Of a DNA stretch of 13,650 nt, positions 1,781 through 11,843 are shown one piece after another. The DNA is from Caryophanales bacterium UBA4869. Its GTDB lineage: Bacteria; Bacillota_I; Bacilli_A; RFN20; CAG-288. The position numbers were made by a program, and so were the translations under genes. The stretch covers positions 22,629 through 36,278 of the forward strand of contig DHDT01000059.1 in assembly GCA_002399505.1 (NCBI GenBank), read 5' to 3'. The number at the start of each line of letters is the position of its first letter. Position 1 is the stretch's first letter. The notes beneath the pieces are model-generated. The model did no database searches. It was not told where the DNA came from and saw nothing but the letters and a program-made list of their open reading frames with translations.

Positions 1781-3364
1781 ATGTACAGAGTCATTGTTGC
1801 CGATGATGAGGAAGCCGTCAGAGACAGACTTATTTCTTTGGTCAACAAACTCAAAGCTGATTTTCAGTTGGTCGGGCAGTTTGAAAACGGCTATGATGCC
1901 TTGGAAGGCATTGAACAGCTTCAGCCTGATTTGCTCATAACTGATATCAAGATGCCCTATATCGACGGCATCGAGCTTATCAAACAGGCAAAACTTGAAG
2001 TTCCTCTGATGCAGACCATCATCATCTCCGGCTATGATTCTTTTGATTATGCAAAGCAGGCTATCGACTTGAAAGTCATCGGCTATATCACTAAGCCCAT
2101 CAGTTTCGATGAACTTAAAGAAGCCATGTATAAAGCCAAGACTGAATTGGATCAGGTTCTTTCTATCGACAAGAACATCGAATCTCTTCAGGAACAGGCA
2201 AAGACTAATCTCTCTCTTTTGCAGGAAAACGATCTCTGCAAGCTTCTGTCTTTGAAAGATGTTCCCGATAACTTCCGAAAGAAACTTGAAATCGATCAGA
2301 TCAACATCAAAGAGAAATACTGCGTGTTGGGTATTTTCGATTTTGATGAGGAATTCGATAAAATCGGCTATGAGACAAGCGAGGTCGTCAACATCTATCT
2401 TCATCGTTATTTATATGATGAATTTGATGAACAGTATTCTATCTATGTCTTCAACAGAAGCAATCAGGTTCTTTTCCTGGCTCTGAGTCAAAAACCCATC
2501 GACAAAGATTCTATGGAAGAGTCTTTGGCTTCCATCTTGTCGAAGATTAACAAAGTCTGTCATATTTCCCTATCAGCCGCCATCAGTGATTTCTCCAGTG
2601 AGAAAGAACATAATTTCCGTAAACTGTTCCGCCATGCCTTGAGAACTCTTGAATACCGAACTGTCATCGGCAAGAGCACTGTTCTTTTCTTTGACGACAT
2701 TCAGAAAGAGGAAGTCAGTATCGGAAAGATTGACGACAATGAATTCAAGACTGTCACTTATGATCTTTCTTACGGATATATCAAAGACTGCAAGGGTCAT
2801 ATCAAGAACATGCTGACTAAGATTGCCAGTCCTGAATATGCCGATTCTTATTTGTATATTATCAGCAGTATCACCAATTCTCTTCTGAAGTCCTGCACGA
2901 ACTTCAAAGATCTCTATAAGAATTTCATGAACAACAACGAGATCTTTCAGACTGTTTATGAATGCAAAAGCGTCGATAAACTCAATGATTTCTTCAATTC
3001 CCTCATCGACAGCATCTATGCTGTCAATGAAGAGACAAGAAACAGCGGCGTCGAATCGGGACTGAAGCAGACTTTAGCCTATATCGACGCTCATTATGCT
3101 GATCAGAATCTTTCTTTGGAGGCTCTGTCAAAAGCTTTATGCTACAGCGTATCCTATCTGTCTTTGCTCTTGAAAAACGACAACAAGACTTTTACCAAGT
3201 ATGTGATGTCAGTCAGAATGGAACACGCCAAAGAGCTTTTGACTAATCCCAACAATAAGATAGTCACAGTTTCGGAAGCTGTCGGATATAGCGATCCTTA
3301 TTATTTTTCTCATTGCTTTAAGAAGTATGTTGGGGTAAGTCCAGTTGAATACCGCAAAAAATAA
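1781..3364 (+). CDS. YesN-like response regulator, receiver plus AraC-type DNA-binding domain
   Basis: 527 residues. Residues 1-120 form a CheY-type receiver domain: acidic pair D8/D9, phospho-acceptor D55 in LLITDIKMP, S83 in the ISGYDSF strand and K105 in ITKPIS. All key residues are present, so phosphorylation-dependent control is expected. Residues about 130-425 are a helical middle region without a recognised domain, typical of long YesN-type regulators. Residues about 428-527 are an AraC-type double helix-turn-helix, ending with the family pattern VSEAVGYSDPYYFSHCFKKYVGVSPVEYR. The gene overlaps the next one (kinase) by 20 bases, so the pair forms a cognate two-component system. The likely target is the promoter in front of the sugar transporter genes at 6154-6183; that link is inference from position. 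The ATG at 1781 has AAGAGGG upstream. Confidence 0.93.
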   Translation: MYRVIVADDEEAVRDRLISLVNKLKADFQLVGQFENGYDALEGIEQLQPDLLITDIKMPYIDGIELIKQAKLEVPLMQTIIISGYDSFDYAKQAIDLKVIGYITKPISFDELKEAMYKAKTELDQVLSIDKNIESLQEQAKTNLSLLQENDLCKLLSLKDVPDNFRKKLEIDQINIKEKYCVLGIFDFDEEFDKIGYETSEVVNIYLHRYLYDEFDEQYSIYVFNRSNQVLFLALSQKPIDKDSMEESLASILSKINKVCHISLSAAISDFSSEKEHNFRKLFRHALRTLEYRTVIGKSTVLFFDDIQKEEVSIGKIDDNEFKTVTYDLSYGYIKDCKGHIKNMLTKIASPEYADSYLYIISSITNSLLKSCTNFKDLYKNFMNNNEIFQTVYECKSVDKLNDFFNSLIDSIYAVNEETRNSGVESGLKQTLAYIDAHYADQNLSLEALSKALCYSVSYLSLLLKNDNKTFTKYVMSVRMEHAKELLTNPNNKIVTVSEAVGYSDPYYFSHCFKKYVGVSPVEYRKK

Positions 3365-5087
3365 AAGAAAATTCACTAATTCTATGGGCTTCCAGATGAT
3401 CTCCTGGTCTTTGGCTGTTTTTGTCTTGTTCTCGATTGTGGTTCTGATCATCGAAATCTTTGTCTATTCCAGTTACGCCAACCAGAATTCGACCACTCAG
3501 AACACAGTTTTGACTGAACAGGTTCTCTACAATTATGAAAAGTATTTTGAGAACATCAGCACGATAAGCAATCAGATTCAGGACCGCGTCTACAGCAACG
3601 ATGATCTGGTCTCTGATAACGAGGAAAAGAAAGAAGACGGACAGTTCTTTGACAATATCATCGCTATCAAGCGGGAGATAAACAGCATCAGGGTCTACAG
3701 TCTTTCTACTGGAAGTCTTCTGGCCAAAGACAGCCAGAGCATCAATGATTCTGTCGATGTCAACAATCCCGATGAGTGGTTCACCTCGGCTAAGACCAAT
3801 ACTCTGATCGACAACTTCTCAGCTGTCACCTATAGCGGAGAATCCTATCATATCGTTCTGTCAAGATATGCTGAAAGCAACAAAGGACAGCTAGACTGCA
3901 TAGTCAGGATGGATCTTGATTTCACCTCTATTGTCAACTCCATCTATGAGGTGGATTTTGGTACCGGCGGTCATATCATCATCTACGATAAGAATTACAG
4001 TCTTGTCTATACATCCTCTAATGAATATTCCGACAGCGAAAAAGCCCTTCTCAAAGAGAACGTCTTAGGTACTAAGAGCGTCACTATCGACAAACATGAC
4101 TTTGTCTTGACTCAGTATACGATTTCACATACGACCTGGAGAGTCGCTCTTTTCTCAAACGTCGATGCCGTCAGAGCGACCAATACGACTTTCATCATCA
4201 TCACCGCCATTGTCTGTCTGGCCTCCTGTGTGGCTTTCTCTTTCATCTTAGTATTATTGGCCAGCACCGTCACTCGTCCCTTGAATGATCTTCAGGAGGC
4301 GATGGACGCTGTCCGAGACAGCGACTATCTGAAATATGTTCCGACTAAGATCAAGGGCTCCAACGAAGTCGAGGAACTCAATGAGTCTTATGACGGCATG
4401 ATGAAACAGATCAAGAAACTGATGAGCAATGTTGTCGAAGAGCAGAACAATCAGAGAAAATCGGAGTTTAAGGCTCTCACCAATCAGATCAATCCTCATT
4501 TCTTATACAACACTCTTGATTCCATCATCTATCTTATCGATGAGGGAAAGAACGAGGATGCTCAGACGATGGTTCTGGCTCTGTCAAAGTTTTTCCGTAT
4601 ATCTATCTCCAAAGGAAAGACCATCATTTCCTTGAGAGATGAGATCGAGCATATCAAGAACTATCTGATTATTCAGAAGATGAGATACAAGGACTCTTTC
4701 AGCTATCAGATTGAGGCTGAACCTCTCTGCCTGGATTTCCAGGTCATCAAACTCATTCTTCAGCCGATTGTCGAAAATGCCATTTATCACGGCCTTCATG
4801 AGAAGGAGTCAGGTATCATCAGAGTCATCTGTTATCAGGAAGGTGATTTCCTGAAATTGTCTGTCAAGGATAACGGGCTTGGCATCACTCAGAATAAGAT
4901 CGATGAGATCAGACAGTCTTTTGATGATCCTGAGGTCTATAACGGTGTCGGTCTCAAGAACGTCTATCAGAGACTGAAGATCTACTATGGACCTAAAGCC
5001 GATGTCCTGATTGAAAGCGTCTTAGATGAAGGAACGACAATAACTTTGGTCATTCCTTTAAGAGGTGGATTAAATGACCAAAAATAA
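3345..5087 (+). CDS. LytS/YesM-type sensor histidine kinase with extracellular Cache-like domain
   Basis: 580 residues from a TTG start. TM1 is about residues 19-42. An extracytoplasmic region of about 235 residues follows, resembling a double Cache sensor (NSIRVYSLSTG, DEWFTSA, GGHIIIYDKNYSLVYTS). TM2 is about 282-306 and HAMP about 307-362. The His-kinase domain has phospho-acceptor H385 in QINPHFLYNTLDS, the form used by kinases paired with YesN regulators. The ATPase domain has N478 in ENAIYHG, D509 in KDNGLGI and a glycine box in NGVGLKNVYQRL. The TTG at 3345 is preferred because GGGG at 3332-3335 is suitably spaced, while the ATG at 3384 has no ribosome site; starting at 3384 would lose only 13 residues. 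It overlaps the regulator by 20 bases and the next lipoprotein by 14, implying translational coupling of all three. The lipoprotein may supply the sugar signal (inference). Confidence 0.92.
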   Translation: MNTAKNKRKFTNSMGFQMISWSLAVFVLFSIVVLIIEIFVYSSYANQNSTTQNTVLTEQVLYNYEKYFENISTISNQIQDRVYSNDDLVSDNEEKKEDGQFFDNIIAIKREINSIRVYSLSTGSLLAKDSQSINDSVDVNNPDEWFTSAKTNTLIDNFSAVTYSGESYHIVLSRYAESNKGQLDCIVRMDLDFTSIVNSIYEVDFGTGGHIIIYDKNYSLVYTSSNEYSDSEKALLKENVLGTKSVTIDKHDFVLTQYTISHTTWRVALFSNVDAVRATNTTFIIITAIVCLASCVAFSFILVLLASTVTRPLNDLQEAMDAVRDSDYLKYVPTKIKGSNEVEELNESYDGMMKQIKKLMSNVVEEQNNQRKSEFKALTNQINPHFLYNTLDSIIYLIDEGKNEDAQTMVLALSKFFRISISKGKTIISLRDEIEHIKNYLIIQKMRYKDSFSYQIEAEPLCLDFQVIKLILQPIVENAIYHGLHEKESGIIRVICYQEGDFLKLSVKDNGLGITQNKIDEIRQSFDDPEVYNGVGLKNVYQRLKIYYGPKADVLIESVLDEGTTITLVIPLRGGLNDQK

Positions 5088-6111
5088 ATTACTGATTATC
5101 TGTTCCTCTCTGTCGATTCTTCTTTCAGGCTGCAAACAGGTACAGAAGAAAATAGGTATCTTTCTCTATAACTCCAACGACACTTTCATCACTGAACTGA
5201 ATTCCTATCTGACTGAGAAACTTAAAATTTCTTATGATTATAAGGTATTTGATGCTCAGGAGTCACAGGTCAGTCAGAATGAACAGCTGCTTTCTGTTCT
5301 CAGAGAAGACTATTCCTGTCTTCTCATCAACACGGTTGACCGTCTGGCCTCAAGTGCCATCATTGAGAAGTGCTCGGCTAAAAATCTTCCTCTTATATTC
5401 TTTAACCGAGAACCTCTTTCCGAAGACATTCAAGGCAAAGAAGACATCTATTATGTCGGGACCAGCGCCAGCATTGCCGGCGAATATCAGGCTGAGATGG
5501 CTTTTGACTTGTTTGTGAAGAACAAGGCTCTTGATCCTGTCTACGACAGAAACAAAGACGGCCGTATTCAGACTGTTGTCATCAAAGGCGAAAAAGGACA
5601 TCAGGACGCGGAACAGAGAACAAAATCATCGACAAACAGACTCCGTGAGTTATTGATTTCAGCTTTAGGAGATAACGGAGAAGACCGATTGGAGATTCTT
5701 TCAGTCGAGTCCGCCGACTGGATGAGATCCAAAGGTCAGAACGTGATGAAGAATATGTATACGGAATACGGAGACAAGATCGAATTAGTCTTGTCAAACA
5801 ATGACGATATGGCAGTAGGTGCTATCGATTATCTGCTTGGAAACGAAAAATATATGGAACAGATAAGCAGTAAAACTCGCGTTTTTCTGCCTATTTTCGG
5901 TGTTGATGCCACAGACGTTGGAAGGGGTGCCATCGCCAATGGCTACTTGGCCGGAACGGTCTTAAATGATGCTGACGGTCAGGCTTCTGCCATCTCTGCT
6001 TTAGTCGATTATGAACTTAAAAATAAGGATTTATCGGACTTTCCTTATAAATTCACTGATGGAAACCGTATTTACATCGACGAAAGAAAATTAACAAAAG
6101 ACTCTCTTTAA
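5074..6111 (+). CDS. canonical glucose/galactose-binding lipoprotein (MglB family), probable sensor partner of the kinase
   Basis: 345 residues with a lipoprotein signal (lipobox LSGC, Cys20) and a type I periplasmic-binding-protein fold in normal lobe order. By comparison with E. coli MglB, the sugar-contacting residues are all present: D36 and F38 (NDTF), N111 (FFNREP), H176/D178/R182 (HQDAEQRT), W216, N243 (SNND), D278 (FGVDA) and N298 (LNDA). The EF-hand-like calcium loop D158-x-N-x-D-G-x-I-Q is intact, with its partner Glu at 237. It should bind D-glucose and/or D-galactose outside the membrane. It is translationally coupled to the kinase gene (14-base overlap, AGAGGTGG five bases before the ATG), whereas the ATPase and permease genes follow a different binding protein. 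I therefore infer a role as co-sensor, in the manner of binding-protein-assisted LytS/YesN systems. A role in transport is also possible, since read-through into the mgl genes is not blocked by any visible terminator. Confidence 0.9.
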   Translation: MTKNKLLIICSSLSILLSGCKQVQKKIGIFLYNSNDTFITELNSYLTEKLKISYDYKVFDAQESQVSQNEQLLSVLREDYSCLLINTVDRLASSAIIEKCSAKNLPLIFFNREPLSEDIQGKEDIYYVGTSASIAGEYQAEMAFDLFVKNKALDPVYDRNKDGRIQTVVIKGEKGHQDAEQRTKSSTNRLRELLISALGDNGEDRLEILSVESADWMRSKGQNVMKNMYTEYGDKIELVLSNNDDMAVGAIDYLLGNEKYMEQISSKTRVFLPIFGVDATDVGRGAIANGYLAGTVLNDADGQASAISALVDYELKNKDLSDFPYKFTDGNRIYIDERKLTKDSL

Positions 6112-6160: not shown

Positions 6161-6183
6161 TTGCAACCGCTTACATCTATAAT
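6154..6183 (+). promoter_or_regulatory. promoter of the sugar transporter genes
   Basis: A perfect -10 TATAAT at 6178-6183 is paired with a poor -35 (TGTTTT, 6154-6159) at 18 bp. Poor -35 plus good -10 suggests activator dependence. The transcript leader would be about 80 bases; no riboswitch or other structure was recognised in it. AAGGGGG at 6258-6264 is the ribosome site of the downstream ATG. Confidence 0.5.
6162..6175 (+). promoter_or_regulatory. catabolite-responsive (cre) site candidate for CcpA
   Basis: TGCAACCGCTTACA matches the Firmicutes cre consensus TGWAANCGNTNWCA at all but the third position. It lies between the -35 and -10 elements, where CcpA binding would repress. This fits control of a sugar transporter by carbon catabolite repression. 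A LacI-family sugar repressor could use a similar site. Confidence 0.5.
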
Positions 6184-6271: not shown

Positions 6272-7501
6272 ATGAAAAAGAATCTGATTCCATTAGGTGT
6301 GTTGGCCTTCGTAGGTTTGGCTGTGACTTCTTGCGGCGGTGCTGCTACTTGGTCTTGGGAAAATGCCAAGGCTGATAAGGCTCTTAAGTATTGCTTACTC
6401 ATCGGCCAGATCGACCACAATGACTCTGCTGCCCGTACTGCCGGTATCCGTGACGCTCTGACAACCAGACCTGCCACTCATGCCACCAATGCAAATACTG
6501 AGACTCCTGTACAGGGCAAGCTCACTATTGGCGGAGTAGAATATGAAGTCGATGAACTTGAACATGCTGAACAGAAATCAACTGCCGGTGCAACTTGGGA
6601 TAAGCAGACTGCCAACGCTTCTGCTCAGACTTGGCTGAACAAGCACAATGATATTGATTTCTTCGTTTCTAATAACGATGGTATGGCTGAAGGTGCTATC
6701 GGTGCCTCCAACTGGATCAACGGATTACCGATCTTCGGTTATGATTCCAACGCCTCCACTCTTCAGTTCATCAAGGATGGAAAGATCATGGGAACCATCA
6801 ACCAGAACGCTTCTGCTCAGGCTGCTGGTATCTACATGTTAGCCAGAAACTGCATTGATGGCGTTGCTGCTGCCGATAGAACTGTCAAGGGTTTCACTGC
6901 CGCCTCTGCAAATGGCTATGGACAGATTTCTTCCAACTACACCTATAACCCTACTAATAAGTCCATGTTGGTTGATAACTTCAAGGTTACTTCCGACAAC
7001 GTCGATAAGTATCTTGGAAAGACTCCTGCTGATTTACTTGATACCAAGGTTACCAAAGGAACAACTGCCTCCAAGAAGGTCTGGCATTCATACTACAGTG
7101 ATCAGGATAACTTCCTCAACGAGAATATGAAGCCTTTGTTCAAGCTCTATAAGGACAAATTCAATCTCGATGTCACTGAGGCTTTCGGTGATGGCAATGA
7201 TGAAGCTAAGGAACTCAATGCCCTTAAGGCTACTGATGCCAATGCCTTTGACTGCTATATCATCAATATGACTAAGACCACCAATGCCAAGACTTATCTT
7301 GATGAAATCTATACCAAGAGCGGTGATGTACCGGTCATCTTCTGGAACAGACAGGCAACACTCACTGATGGAACTGTCGATTCTGCCGTCATGGCCGATT
7401 CCAGATTCACCAAGGGTGTCTACTATGTCGGCTTTGATGCCATCCAGGGTGGTACTCTCCAGGGTCAGATGATCGTCGACTATTTCAAGGCTCTTAAGTA
7501 A
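6272..7501 (+). CDS. circularly permuted glucose/galactose-binding lipoprotein of the Mgl transporter
   Basis: 409 residues, longer than canonical MglB. A lipoprotein signal ends at VTSC (Cys21). The C-terminal lobe follows directly: residues 38-63 carry H49-x-D51-x3-R55 (HNDSAART), then W109, N135 in VSNND, D158 in FGYD and N177 in INQN. About residues 198-268 hold the former C-terminal tail plus a Lys/Thr-rich linker. The N-terminal lobe comes last: residues 270-409 with DQDNFL (D279, F281), CYIINM, VIFWNR (N359) and VYYVG-x8-QGQ at the very end. Every sugar-contacting position of E. coli MglB has its counterpart, but the two halves are swapped. The new ends correspond to E. coli residues about 131 and 137, so the calcium loop is absent. 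A linked insertion GKLTIGGVEYEVDEL lies around 82-96. It has its own promoter, a cre-like site and a strong ribosome site, and a terminator follows. The position before mglA and mglC marks it as the transporter's binding protein. Confidence 0.88.
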   Translation: MKKNLIPLGVLAFVGLAVTSCGGAATWSWENAKADKALKYCLLIGQIDHNDSAARTAGIRDALTTRPATHATNANTETPVQGKLTIGGVEYEVDELEHAEQKSTAGATWDKQTANASAQTWLNKHNDIDFFVSNNDGMAEGAIGASNWINGLPIFGYDSNASTLQFIKDGKIMGTINQNASAQAAGIYMLARNCIDGVAAADRTVKGFTAASANGYGQISSNYTYNPTNKSMLVDNFKVTSDNVDKYLGKTPADLLDTKVTKGTTASKKVWHSYYSDQDNFLNENMKPLFKLYKDKFNLDVTEAFGDGNDEAKELNALKATDANAFDCYIINMTKTTNAKTYLDEIYTKSGDVPVIFWNRQATLTDGTVDSAVMADSRFTKGVYYVGFDAIQGGTLQGQMIVDYFKALK

Positions 7502-7529: not shown

Positions 7530-7569
7530 CATCGGACCTGTTTCTTACGGGTCCGATGCTGTCTTTTTT
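7530..7569 (+). terminator. internal terminator between binding-protein and ATPase genes
   Basis: CATCGGACC (7530-7538) pairs perfectly with GGTCCGATG (7550-7558), extendable by a G-U and a G-C pair, followed by CTGTCTTTTTTA. No separate promoter is evident before mglA (only 18 bases remain to its ATG). It therefore probably acts as a partial terminator that keeps the binding protein in excess. Confidence 0.8.
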
Positions 7570-7587: not shown

Positions 7588-9093
7588 ATGCCAGACAATA
7601 AATACATCCTTGAAATATCCGGTTTATCCAAATCATTCGGCAGAAACCAAGTTCTTAAAGACATTAATCTTAAAGTCAGACCGGGTACTATTCTTGGTCT
7701 TATGGGTGAAAATGGTGCAGGAAAATCAACGATGATGAAATGCCTCTTTGGCATCTACTCACGTGATGGCGGCAACATCAAACTTGATGGCTTAGATATT
7801 AACTTCACTTCTCCAAAGGAAGCTTTGGAACACGGTATAGCCATGGTTCATCAGGAACTGAACCAATGCTTGGATCGGACAATTCAGGACAATATGTTCT
7901 TAGGCAGATATATTACAAAAGGCGGAATCATTGATGAATCTGCCATGTATTATAAATGTCTGAGCATTTTTAATGAGTTAGGTATGAACTTCAATCCTAG
8001 GACGATCATGAGAACGATGTCTGTTTCTCAGCGTCAGATGGTTGAAATTGCCAAAGCTGTCTCTTACAACTCTAAAGTCATTGTCTTAGACGAGCCTACT
8101 TCTTCTCTTTCCGAAAGAGAAGTTGTGAAGCTATTCAGTATTATTAGAAATCTGAAGGCTAAAAAGAACATCAGTTTTGTTTTCATCTCACATAAGATGG
8201 ATGAAATATTTGATCTCTGTGACGATGTAGTTATTCTTCGTGATGGCTCCGTCACTTTGGATAAACCTGTCAAGAACACCAATCTTGATGAGCTTGTCGC
8301 CGCCATGGTCGGCAGATCTCTTGATTCAAGATTCCCGCCTATGACAAATAAGCCCGGCGAAGTCGTCTTTCAGGTACGTAATCTCTGCACTAAATATAAA
8401 CCATTCCTGAAAAATATCAGTTTTGACCTTAAAAAGGGTGAAATTCTTGGTGTTTATGGATTGGTCGGTGCTGGAAGAAGCGAACTTCTCGAGTCTCTGT
8501 TTGGTGTCAGAACCATTGCCGAAGGTGAAATCTTCTATCGTGGAAAACGAATTTTATTCACTTCGCCTATTCAGGCGATGCAGGCTAACTTCGCCTTCCT
8601 CACTGAAGAGAGAAAAGTCACTGGTTTATTCGGAACTGGCGATCTAGTCTTCAATACCTGCATCACTAATCTCGATAAGTATATGGATTTTGGATTCTAT
8701 GTCGACAATGCCAAGATGCGTGCCGCCGCTGATAAGGAAATCAAACAGATGCATGTCAAATGCATGAGTGCAAATGATAAGATCCTTTCTCTCTCTGGCG
8801 GTAATCAGCAAAAAGTAATCATCGGAAAATGGATGGAAAGACAACCTGATATTTTCCTGATGGATGAACCTACCCGTGGTATTGATATCATGGCAAAGTA
8901 TCAGATTTACGAGCTCATGGTCAAATTGGCTTCGGAAGGAAAATCAATCATCATGGTTTCTTCGGAAATGCCGGAAATCTTGGGTATCACCGATCGAATC
9001 GTCGTCATGTCCAACTATCATATGGCCAGTGTCGTCAATACTAAAGATACTAACCAAGAAGAACTGCTTAAGTTATGCGCCAAATACTTATAG
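7588..9093 (+). CDS. mglA: sugar ABC transporter ATP-binding protein, two-domain (MglA type)
   Basis: 501 residues, the usual length for the fused double-ATPase subunit of ribose/galactose-type importers. Domain 1 has Walker A GENGAGKST (40-48), signature region MSVSQRQMVEIAKA (S147) and Walker B VIVLDEPTSSL (D168, E169), with the switch His in FISHKMDE. Domain 2 has the degenerate P-loop GLVGAGRSE (291-299), as is normal in this family, an intact signature LSGGNQQK (402-408) and Walker B IFLMDEPTRGID (D426, E427). It is cytosolic and powers uptake through the downstream permease. AAAGGGGA precedes the ATG. The stop is 12 bases before the mglC start, with AGGAG between, so the two are cotranscribed. 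Substrate (glucose/galactose) is inferred from the adjacent binding proteins. Confidence 0.94.
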   Translation: MPDNKYILEISGLSKSFGRNQVLKDINLKVRPGTILGLMGENGAGKSTMMKCLFGIYSRDGGNIKLDGLDINFTSPKEALEHGIAMVHQELNQCLDRTIQDNMFLGRYITKGGIIDESAMYYKCLSIFNELGMNFNPRTIMRTMSVSQRQMVEIAKAVSYNSKVIVLDEPTSSLSEREVVKLFSIIRNLKAKKNISFVFISHKMDEIFDLCDDVVILRDGSVTLDKPVKNTNLDELVAAMVGRSLDSRFPPMTNKPGEVVFQVRNLCTKYKPFLKNISFDLKKGEILGVYGLVGAGRSELLESLFGVRTIAEGEIFYRGKRILFTSPIQAMQANFAFLTEERKVTGLFGTGDLVFNTCITNLDKYMDFGFYVDNAKMRAAADKEIKQMHVKCMSANDKILSLSGGNQQKVIIGKWMERQPDIFLMDEPTRGIDIMAKYQIYELMVKLASEGKSIIMVSSEMPEILGITDRIVVMSNYHMASVVNTKDTNQEELLKLCAKYL

Positions 9094-9105: not shown

Positions 9106-10782
9106 ATGGAACAAGATAATAAAGCCGTTGTCACGACGGATAAACAGGATAGTCCGTATGTATCCAATCCTGCTTTTGAAGACTATCTAAAACAGCTTAA
9201 TGAACTTAGAGCTGACGGTGAGAACAAAGCTATCGCCTTAACTAACGAAATCCAAGATCTCAAGCTCAATAAGCAGATTGAAAAAGAAGTCCGAGACGAT
9301 GCAATCGCCACTGATAAGGCTGCTCTTGAAATAGCCAAAGAAGAGCGTTCTAAGAAAAAAGATCAGGTTCATGAAATCATCCGGAAAGCTATCCAGGAAT
9401 CAAATACTCAGTTCAAACCTTATTTCGATGAACTCTGCAGTCGCGAAAGGGCCAACATTCAGGAAGCAAAAGAAGAGTATGCTTCTGCAATTGCCGGTTA
9501 CAAAGACAAACATCAGAAACGTTTAGCCATCATCAACAATATGAATGCCGCTGATAAATCAGCCGGCACTGATATTGAGAAGCAGAAGAAGATTGAGACT
9601 AAGGCTGAAAACATCGCCTATAAATCCCATATTCATGAAGCGACGATTGACCGTGATACAAAGATAACCAGTGCCAAAGATGCCAAATACAATGCCTTCA
9701 TGGAAAAGTACGGCTATGCTACCAAGGTCAGAAACAACAAACACTCGATACTTGAGAGCATCGAATACAAGTGGCAGCATTACCAGAATACCTTCAATGT
9801 CCGTGACTATTTGCTGAGAAATGCCCTTTACTTCGTTGTCATCGCTCTGTTCATCGTCTTCATCATCATTTCCAAAGGCAACCTGCTTTCCGGAAACAAC
9901 ATCATCGGTATTCTCTCACAGGCATCACCGAAACTCTTCTACTCTTTAGGTGTTGCCGGTCTGATCCTTATCGCCGGTACTGACTTGTCAATCGGTCGTA
10001 TGACTGGATTGGGATTGAGTATCTGCTGTCTGATTCTCTCTGATAATACTTATGCTGATAAATTCGGCAACACGTGGTTCAATCTTACTTCTGCCCCTTG
10101 GGGACTTAGAATCTGCTTAGCCATCTTCTTATCAATTCTCTTATGCGTCCTCTTCTCAGCCATTGCCGGATTCTTCACTGCCAAATTCAAGATGCATCCG
10201 TTCATCACCACTCTTTCCACTCAGTTATTGATGTTCGGTCTTGTTGAAGTCTTCTTCTCCAATATCTCTTCCTTCAATATGAATACTACTTTGAAAGCCA
10301 ACATCATCGGCTACCAGGGCTGGATTTTGATCATCTATGCCGCCATAGCGACGTTGATTGTCTGGTTTATCTGGAATAAGACTAAATTCGGTAAGTACAT
10401 GTACGCAGTCGGCGGCAACCCGGAAGCTGCTGCTGTCTCTGGTATCAACGTCTTCAAGATCACCATGGGAATCTTCGTCATGGCTGGTGTCCTCTATGGT
10501 TTAGGCGGTTTCTTCACCGCTGCCCAGGTCGGAACCGGTAACCCTAACACAGGTTATGGTACTGAACTTGATGCTATCGCAGCCTGCGTCATCGGCGGCA
10601 TTTCCTTCTCAGGCGGTGTCGGAACGATCAAAGGTGCTGTTATCGGAACCATCATTTTCACCGGTATGACTTATTGTCTTACTAACTTAGGTTATGATCC
10701 TAACATTCAGTATATCTTCAAAGGCGCCATCATCATGGCCGCTGTCTGTCTTGACTCTATCAAGTATCTGAAGAAGAAGTAA
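9106..10782 (+). CDS. mglC: galactose/glucose ABC transporter permease (MglC type) with long N-terminal coiled-coil extension
   Basis: 558 residues against about 336 for E. coli MglC. Residues about 232-558 are the normal permease core: a run of hydrophobic helices with family motifs AGTDLSIGR (290-298), FGKYMYAVGGNPEAAAVSGI and GGISFSGGVGT (497-507). Residues 1-230 are extra: very rich in Lys, Glu, Asp, Ala and Ile, with no hydrophobic helix. They are predicted by eye to form long cytosolic coiled-coil helices (for example the Lys/Glu stretch at about 65-90, and 105-140). No known domain was recognised there. The start is firm: AGGAG at 9094-9098, seven bases before the ATG, and the extension is continuous in frame with no later ribosome site evident before the core. 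It pairs with MglA to form the membrane channel. A strong terminator follows the gene. The function of the extension is unknown. Confidence 0.92.
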   Translation: MEQDNKAVVTTDKQDSPYVSNPAFEDYLKQLNELRADGENKAIALTNEIQDLKLNKQIEKEVRDDAIATDKAALEIAKEERSKKKDQVHEIIRKAIQESNTQFKPYFDELCSRERANIQEAKEEYASAIAGYKDKHQKRLAIINNMNAADKSAGTDIEKQKKIETKAENIAYKSHIHEATIDRDTKITSAKDAKYNAFMEKYGYATKVRNNKHSILESIEYKWQHYQNTFNVRDYLLRNALYFVVIALFIVFIIISKGNLLSGNNIIGILSQASPKLFYSLGVAGLILIAGTDLSIGRMTGLGLSICCLILSDNTYADKFGNTWFNLTSAPWGLRICLAIFLSILLCVLFSAIAGFFTAKFKMHPFITTLSTQLLMFGLVEVFFSNISSFNMNTTLKANIIGYQGWILIIYAAIATLIVWFIWNKTKFGKYMYAVGGNPEAAAVSGINVFKITMGIFVMAGVLYGLGGFFTAAQVGTGNPNTGYGTELDAIAACVIGGISFSGGVGTIKGAVIGTIIFTGMTYCLTNLGYDPNIQYIFKGAIIMAAVCLDSIKYLKKK

Positions 10783-10874: not shown

Positions 10875-11834
10875 TTAGCTGATAATCGTCTTTTTTGCAG
10901 CACTGCTTTCTTCAATCTGACGGGCCAGGTTTAACGAGTAGCTGATACCAGTTGAGGTGGTTGACTTATCGACGAGAATCACATTCTTTTCAAATCCTAA
11001 AAGAACGACTCCGCCGGAGATTATCTTCTTATCGACGGAGGCGTGGAAGGACTGGAAGAGTCTTTTCATGAACATGTTGCCGATCTTATAGTTGAATGAG
11101 GTGTTGACTCCTTTTTCAATATAGCTGTCAAAGACGGTGATGCCCTGATTGATGCCGGCAATGACTGTCTGGAAGAGAACAGGATTTCCAAGCAAAATAT
11201 CTGTTTTGGCCTGAAGGAAGTTTTCGGTTTCCAAAAGTCCCAGATATCCTTCTTCTTCTTTCAGTCTTTCAATTATTTCTTTTTCTTTTTCATCGATTGT
11301 GATGTTTGAAGGGATGAGGAATTTAAATCCGGGCTTCTCGATTTTTAAAACGGCACTGCAATAGAACTTTAAGGCCTTGAGATAATAGAGGTAGTCGTCG
11401 ATTGTCGGATTCATCTTGAATCCCAGATCTCCGATGACGGTCTTCTTTGATGTGTAGGCATTGGCAAAGAGGGTTATATATAACTGAGAATCCGAAGATT
11501 TCTTTAAGCAGTTTTTGCAGGCTGAGGCAATCTCGTCTTTGTCGGTGAAGGTGACATAGGAATCGATCTTGCTTTCAGGATTTCGTAATAAGGAGAAGGC
11601 AATCTTCTGTGTCTTTCCTTTTAGAAACTCAGTGCTGTCATCTAGTTCTCTGTCATAGGTATCTACGTTGATTAGTTCGATATTGTTTTCGTTTTTGATA
11701 GTCAGAAGATTATTGATATCGCCGATTACAACGACTGATGAATTCTTGTTTTTTGATAAGAAAAATTTTATTCCCTGAACGGCTTTGGAAGAGTCTTTTT
11801 CTAAAGCGGAAACATCAATTAAGATTTTTGACAT
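10875..11834 (-). CDS. divergent PlsX-like (phosphate acyltransferase family) protein
   Basis: 319 residues. I place the start at the second ATG (11834), since AGGAG at 11848-11844 is nine bases from it but directly abuts the upstream ATG at 11843. The overall plan resembles PlsX, which makes acyl-phosphate from acyl-ACP at the membrane in phospholipid synthesis. The N-terminal strand KILIDVSALEKDSS sits where PlsX has its AVDAMGGD motif. A strand VVVIGD follows, then TDILLGNPVLFQTVIAGI where PlsX has its DGFxGN region. Near the end GGVVLLGFEKNVILVDKS resembles the GGxPLLG...V.KxHGS segment. The Asp-rich GGD motif and the HGS motif are both altered, so it may be a diverged paralogue without the usual activity. 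No signal peptide or membrane helix is seen. It is a single gene facing the mgl terminator. Assignment is by pattern memory only. Confidence 0.55.
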   Translation of the reverse strand: MSKILIDVSALEKDSSKAVQGIKFFLSKNKNSSVVVIGDINNLLTIKNENNIELINVDTYDRELDDSTEFLKGKTQKIAFSLLRNPESKIDSYVTFTDKDEIASACKNCLKKSSDSQLYITLFANAYTSKKTVIGDLGFKMNPTIDDYLYYLKALKFYCSAVLKIEKPGFKFLIPSNITIDEKEKEIIERLKEEEGYLGLLETENFLQAKTDILLGNPVLFQTVIAGINQGITVFDSYIEKGVNTSFNYKIGNMFMKRLFQSFHASVDKKIISGGVVLLGFEKNVILVDKSTTSTGISYSLNLARQIEESSAAKKTIIS

Positions 11835-11843
11835 TTTTATCAT

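Follow-up and report, generated by a model that had tools for sequence, protein, structure and literature searches.

A circularly permuted MglB-like lipoprotein and a sugar-receptor family in which all five block rotations occur

A permuted receptor gene and its parts

The stretch of DNA analysed here (the window) comprises 13,650 nucleotides of contig DHDT01000059.1 (positions 22,629 to 36,278; GenBank assembly GCA_002399505.1) from Caryophanales bacterium UBA4869. It carries a gene for a lipoprotein related to the glucose/galactose-binding protein MglB, in which the segments of the fold stand in an unusual order. We divide this fold into five blocks, which follow each other as A-B-Ca-Cb-C2 (A-B-C for short) in canonical proteins and as Ca-Cb-C2-A-B (C-A-B) in the window protein. 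The gene and its parts are as follows.

6272..7501, + strand: permuted MglB-like lipoprotein, block order Ca-Cb-C2-A-B, 409 residues
6272..6334, + strand: lipoprotein signal peptide, residues 1-21 with lipobox Cys21 at the end, assigned from sequence and conservation
6383..6463, + strand: block Ca, first strand-helix of the C lobe past the calcium loop (IGQIDHND..R; MglB H152, D154, R158)
6539..6766, + strand: block Cb, remainder of the C lobe (W109, SNND, FGYD)
6785..6871, + strand: block C2, hinge and final N-lobe elements (GTINQN)
6992..7069, + strand: linker from old C terminus to old N terminus, residues 241-266
7073..7291, + strand: block A, opening part of the N lobe (DQDNF; PF18610 match)
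7325..7483, + strand: block B (IFWNR..YYVGF..QGQMI), C-terminal here and N-terminal in TpMglB-2 of Treponema pallidum

A sequence-only reading of this gene had proposed that the MglB fold is naturally circularly permuted here, C-lobe motifs coming first and N-lobe motifs last, and several lines of evidence support this. The motifs lie where that reading placed them, and the MglB-like segments run C-A-B. The homologue encoded directly upstream (5074..6111) has the normal order, and a BLASTP comparison with it returns the two swapped blocks that had been predicted: window residues 268-405 align with 25-147 (E 5e-8) and 97-190 with 204-310 (E 2e-7), the remaining six pieces having E values of 0.7 or worse. 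Shuffle z-scores against the same protein are 10.1 for segment C, 7.5 for B and 2.3 for A alone, so that the case for homology of block A comes from A and B matching jointly, from the PF18610 match and from the family alignment. The protein passes the gathering scores of PF13407 (Peripla_BP_4, type I binding-protein fold; 91.1 vs. 35.1 bits) and PF18610 (Peripla_BP_7; 49.1 vs. 36.8 bits), and misses the cut-off of the NCBIfam MglB equivalog NF011924 (85.1 vs. 420 bits). Profile positions 121-256 of PF13407 map to window residues 36-197, i.e. the C part leads. The predicted structure is confident (pLDDT 92.9) and matches type I binding proteins. Cys21 is conserved in at least 90% of the rows in an alignment of 75 relatives, and in the model the lipid anchor would run directly into the C lobe, consistent with the proposal that it sits beside the other lobe. 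The permuted order is also conserved, the best 120 relatives comprising 108 full C-A-B proteins, 6 with the order B-C-A and 6 partial ones.

All five rotations among relatives

To assign orders, profiles of the five blocks were built from the re-framed family and read in 360 relatives, which combine three best-120 lists seeded by three queries of different order and whose counts are not abundances. All five blocks are present in 354 of the 360, and all five cyclic rotations occur: 126 proteins are B-Ca-Cb-C2-A (B-C-A), 108 Ca-Cb-C2-A-B, 98 A-B-Ca-Cb-C2, 21 Cb-C2-A-B-Ca (Cb-first) and 1 C2-A-B-Ca-Cb (C2-first), with 6 partial. No order outside these rotations was found among the 354 complete proteins, nor a sixth order among 236 open reading frames (ORFs) with all five blocks, drawn from overlapping loci. 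The 21 Cb-first proteins are 52-99% identical to their query, and the C2-first order rests on two sequences, 95% identical, one derived from a genome and the other from another source. A signal peptide and lipobox of its own was present in every rotated ORF that was read. Natural cuts map close to mature MglB residues 81/84, 130/134-142, 168/175 and 247/249. Once re-framed, close homologues of differing order are 51-67% identical; for example, identity is 67% between C2-first L121 and B-C-A L114, 62% between Cb-first P0259 and A-B-C P0262, and 54% between C-A-B L002 and B-C-A P0105.

Among the best 80 of 284 genome loci found, 67 are B-C-A and 13 C-A-B. The former are from spirochaetes apart from L013, L038 and L060, and the latter from Bacilli, Bacillales or uncultured bacteria. 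Different orders also coexist at close range. The G033 family (23 genomes, 10 with a match) contains four rotations, namely C2-first (G033), B-C-A (G013, G015, G021), A-B-C (G019) and C-A-B (G001, G002, G028, G030, G031), and the G037 family (18 genomes, 3 with a match) contains Cb-first and A-B-C. A wider survey of 392 genomes of the phylum, 19 of them matching at E 1e-20, revealed no new order among the places listed, which are places rather than full order assignments, and none of 19 pattern matches in viral contigs is a relative. One very diverged ORF, L187:1408-2748 in G002 (which also holds a C-A-B gene), reads B-Cb-A; its block matches are weak (16.6, 11.5 and 4.1 bits) and it lacks the NRQ motif.

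Sugar pocket and calcium loop

The sequence-only reading gave each of the ten sugar contacts of MglB a counterpart in the window protein. Nine of these are identical and the tenth, N256, corresponds to Gln178, making the claim slightly too strong; Gln also occupies this position in 14/14 B-C-A rows of the TpMglB-2 clade. The proteins of this family presumably have a hexose ligand, for instance glucose or galactose.

The calcium loop is a different matter. At what we take to be the six calcium-ligand positions of the MglB loop, D138 alone is identical in the window protein. The motif D-x-[ND]-x-D is present in 128/128 B-C-A, 21/21 Cb-first and 98/98 A-B-C proteins, and in 0/108 near C-A-B proteins and 0/6 members of a secondary B-C-A clade. 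In the near C-A-B proteins the calcium-loop region has turned into the free N terminus. E205 is named in PMC4990184 as one of the ligands of the MglB loop.

Repeated changes of order

How often has the order changed? Five orders imply at least four changes. The trees built to address this use hand-picked rows: 100 in the alignment, 74 in the protein tree and 66 of those 74 in a mixture-model tree (eight long or redundant rows removed). Trees of the transporter proteins MglA+MglC cover 59 loci, in which the spirochaetes are thinned relative to the 93 operons found and newly fetched Bacilli are added. The number of changes needed is 6 on the protein tree (re-framed sequences), 5 on the mixture-model tree and 6 on the MglA+MglC trees, whose proteins are not permuted; this is more than a single origin of permutation gives. 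In the MglA+MglC trees, C2-first lies inside a B-C-A group and Cb-first next to A-B-C. L013, a B-C-A locus and the only available genome locus of the secondary B-C-A clade, falls within the C-A-B clade (joint clade support 100/100). The clade tests were picked after a tree had been viewed. The transporter tree rejects B-C-A plus C2-first as a single clade (p 4e-42) and weakly rejects near C-A-B without L013 (p 0.026), and a single C-A-B clade is rejected by both the protein tree (p 0.03) and the transporter tree (p 0.0003). For C-A-B there may have been one origin or two. The loss of the calcium loop in both near C-A-B and the secondary B-C-A clade agrees with a reversion of C-A-B to B-C-A.

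The operon slot, on the other hand, has stayed the same. In 26/26 loci inspected the binding-protein gene adjoins, directly before, an mglA-like gene, and an MglC-like gene comes after mglA wherever the contig extends far enough. Very probably, the window protein is the sugar-receptor lipoprotein of an MglA-MglC-type importer, with a permuted MglB fold, from a family that has repeatedly shifted its cut, through all five rotations, with the sugar pocket and the position next to mglA-mglC retained. Beyond this, it is likely that five or more re-cuts of the receptor, a return from C-A-B to B-C-A among them, took place at four new surface loops while the operon slot was kept, that all five rotations serve homologous importers, and that the planctomycete protein of PDB entry 5er3 reached or shares one of them.

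A possible route by tandem duplication

How might such re-cutting have come about? For each change of order, the lipoprotein gene would have been duplicated in tandem and fused in frame, after which the outer pieces of the fused gene would have been lost. In the window protein the cut falls within the calcium-loop region, immediately behind the first C-lobe helix, and the linker connects the old ends; clam-shell closure would hand the sugar to MglC. An origin by tandem duplication with loss of both outer halves, as the sequence-only reading had it, is plausible and unproven. Permutation by duplication predicts junctions that join an old tail to an old mature start. The A-to-B junction of C2-first L121 reads like a B-C-A-type end of A followed by a mature B-C-A start minus its signal peptide. 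The B-to-Ca linker of the secondary B-C-A clade gives at best 83-100 against a C-A-B tail plus start and at best 60-72 against other B-C-A linkers, a comparison that is weak alone given that the C-A-B rows are nearer kin overall and that the compared stretch takes in the end of block B. Tandem receptor copies, the first step of the model, are found in the slot at L008, L011, L014, L044, L112 and L113, with identities from 77-80% (L008:565-3271, L044:6398-9110) down to 36-41% in others. Junctions and calcium-loop loss together point to tandem fusion followed by re-trimming.

In two of these loci, L112 (3084-4559) and L113 (G198 and G199), the second tandem receptor has an open frame of 615-620 residues, exceeding that of its neighbour. 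As a near parent of the permuted gene the upstream canonical gene could be rejected, since the two proteins are 23% identical after rotation and the upstream one groups with another canonical set in the protein tree. A tblastn search of the window with three segments for remnants of lost blocks returned the gene itself and its canonical neighbour, and otherwise E values of 0.5 or worse. Four two-copy families of direct repeats occur, none at an interpretable junction.

Alternative explanations

Several observations weigh against repeated re-cutting with conserved function. The protein trees are compatible with a single clade of B-C-A plus C2-first (approximately unbiased test, p 0.06 and 0.105), near C-A-B held together without the P0104 clade fits the protein tree slightly better than the free tree, and one C-A-B clade is placed basally there, which bears on the first order after A-B-C. 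The transporter tree leaves two B-C-A groups in an open fork beside the C-A-B clade. In the pocket, Asn and Glu replace H152 and D154 in the distant C-A-B group (7/7), and Asn replaces F16 in the Cb-first group (7/7), so that ligands may differ. Finally, neither the 360 listed proteins nor the ORFs of the loci include a repeated-block or fused intermediate, in a search whose length limit excluded double-length proteins. The first of these points would suit a scenario with four changes, in which each order arose once and lateral movement of entire binding-protein genes among operons produced the scatter; PMC4990184 suggests that the B-C-A type was shared horizontally. We consider this unlikely, given that protein and transporter trees concur in grouping L013-type B-C-A with near C-A-B, C2-first with B-C-A, and Cb-first with its A-B-C sisters, that the secondary B-C-A clade and near C-A-B have the lost calcium loop in common, and that both kinds of tree reject C-A-B as a single clade.

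The remaining alternatives concern the nature of the rotated proteins themselves. The C-A-B protein could be folded but serve no transport, acting for example as an adhesin or only as a sensor, and the operon does carry a canonical homologue next to a two-component system. The permuted gene is, however, the one directly before mglA in every inspected locus, and its product retains the pocket residues, making this improbable. Even less probable is that block A came from another gene and resembles the MglB N lobe by convergence, as raised for TpMglB-2 in PMC4990184, which reports 13% identity for the block A part; the low z-score of block A alone would agree with this. We reject a foreign origin because A and B of the C-A-B profile find a joint match in the A-B-C relatives L133/L134 (82-83 bits), residues 211-369 of L124 align with MglB 10-160 in one stretch spanning A, B and Ca, and the D14 and F16 counterparts are retained in most alignment rows. 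The sources are mostly metagenome assemblies and tandem copies exist, which might make one think of assembly or annotation artefacts of tandem genes. This is scarcely credible and was discarded: the 108 C-A-B, 126 B-C-A and 21 Cb-first listed proteins come from many clusters and contigs, C2-first is present in two separate sequences, the rotated ORFs that were read each carry a signal peptide with lipobox, and TpMglB-2 and 5er3 are solved structures. Repeated re-cutting of one receptor remains our preferred explanation.

Gene neighbourhood

The other annotated features of the window are as follows.

1781..3364, + strand: response regulator with AraC-type helix-turn-helix
3345..5087, + strand: sensor histidine kinase (His_kinase, HAMP)
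5074..6111, + strand: canonical A-B-C MglB-like lipoprotein, start overlapping the end of the sensor kinase gene
7530..7568, + strand: hairpin and T run separating the binding-protein gene from mglA (z -6.3)
7588..9093, + strand: MglA-like ABC ATPase
9106..10782, + strand: MglC-like permease with about 225 additional N-terminal residues

The overlap of its gene start with the end of the kinase gene makes the canonical lipoprotein a probable partner of the sensor. A response regulator, sensor kinase and canonical binding protein lie upstream in the window and in L146, L038 and L010. We infer a division of labour in which the sensor uses the canonical protein and the importer the permuted one. 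If the receptor is produced in excess, a strong hairpin with a T run ahead of mglA is what one would expect. In the permease the MglC match covers residues 228-558, after the extra N-terminal part, and the MglC-like ORFs of neighbouring loci are likewise long (545-775 residues).

A palindromic cre-like site, TGCAACCGCTTACA, lies at 6162-6175, about 100 bases upstream of the permuted gene. It has one mismatch to what we take to be the CcpA consensus, to which the window has four matches vs. 1.06 expected, two of the four being TGCAACCGCTTACA counted on both strands. The ORF at 10875-11843 on the minus strand has a weak, sub-threshold match to PF02504 (fatty acid synthesis protein), and ORFs resembling it sit near mgl genes in several loci. 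Rfam gave no match.

Implications

Natural circular permutation is mostly met as an isolated protein pair, and the surprising part here is the completeness and repetition of rotations across a family. With close homologues (51-67% identical) in one gene slot and in different orders, it becomes possible to read and test the steps and direction of permutation, its functional cost and the scars at its junctions. There are practical consequences as well: domain models that assume one order split permuted proteins, as with PF13407 and PF18610, and order-bound searches overlook permuted relatives. If our explanation is correct, which we think probable, the order of the chain has been fluid in the evolution of this sugar-receptor family.

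Comparison with known systems

The sequence-only reading knew of no described natural permuted MglB. This is wrong: TpMglB-2 (Tp0684) is a crystallised, glucose-binding circularly permuted MglB, termed 'Type Ic / Cluster Bc' in PMC4990184, which reports this topology in treponemes and many Gram-positive bacteria and regards the permutation as an adaptation to membrane tethering. Five lipid-anchor attachment points on one fold now provide a comparison set for that idea. The 2016 survey in that paper demanded matching N termini, and other rotations could therefore not appear. The window protein resembles TpMglB-2 (PDB 5jx2, 6bgc, 6bgd) in its permuted MglB fold, lipoprotein nature, C2-A linkage and PF18610 match; its residues 241-266, the extra segment joining the old termini, resemble the linkers of B-C-A relatives by eye. 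The best PDB match is 5jx2 (E 1.5e-61), in two stretches that align residues 344-406 with chain positions 13-73 and 32-346 with 81-385. However, TpMglB-2 has the order B-C-A, with a cut near MglB 81/84, an N-terminal block B (FFNRQ..YYVGFD..QG.MI) and a retained calcium loop, whereas the window protein has the order C-A-B, with a cut near 130/142, a C-terminal block B and no calcium loop. A plain verdict that the window protein is already known as TpMglB-2 is ruled out by the differing block order; it is a new rotation of an already known kind of permuted receptor. A literature search on permuted binding proteins, covering few subscription papers, found no description of the C-A-B order, and PMC4990184 was the sole natural case among titles and abstracts.

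PDB 5er3, a sugar-binding protein of Rhodopirellula baltica for which a literature search found no paper, is like the window protein a C-lobe-first permuted type I binding protein and appears to be a Cb-first circular permutant. E. coli MglB shares the fold, nine of the ten sugar contacts and the mglBAC gene order, but is canonical A-B-C and 28% identical to the window protein after rotation (302 positions). More broadly, DNA methyltransferases occur in a wide range of circular orders. They and other multiply permuted families, as described in PMC3320104, likewise have more than one order, with duplication as the proposed route; unlike in those families, homologues that are 51-67% identical here share one operon slot, and the set of five-block rotations is complete.
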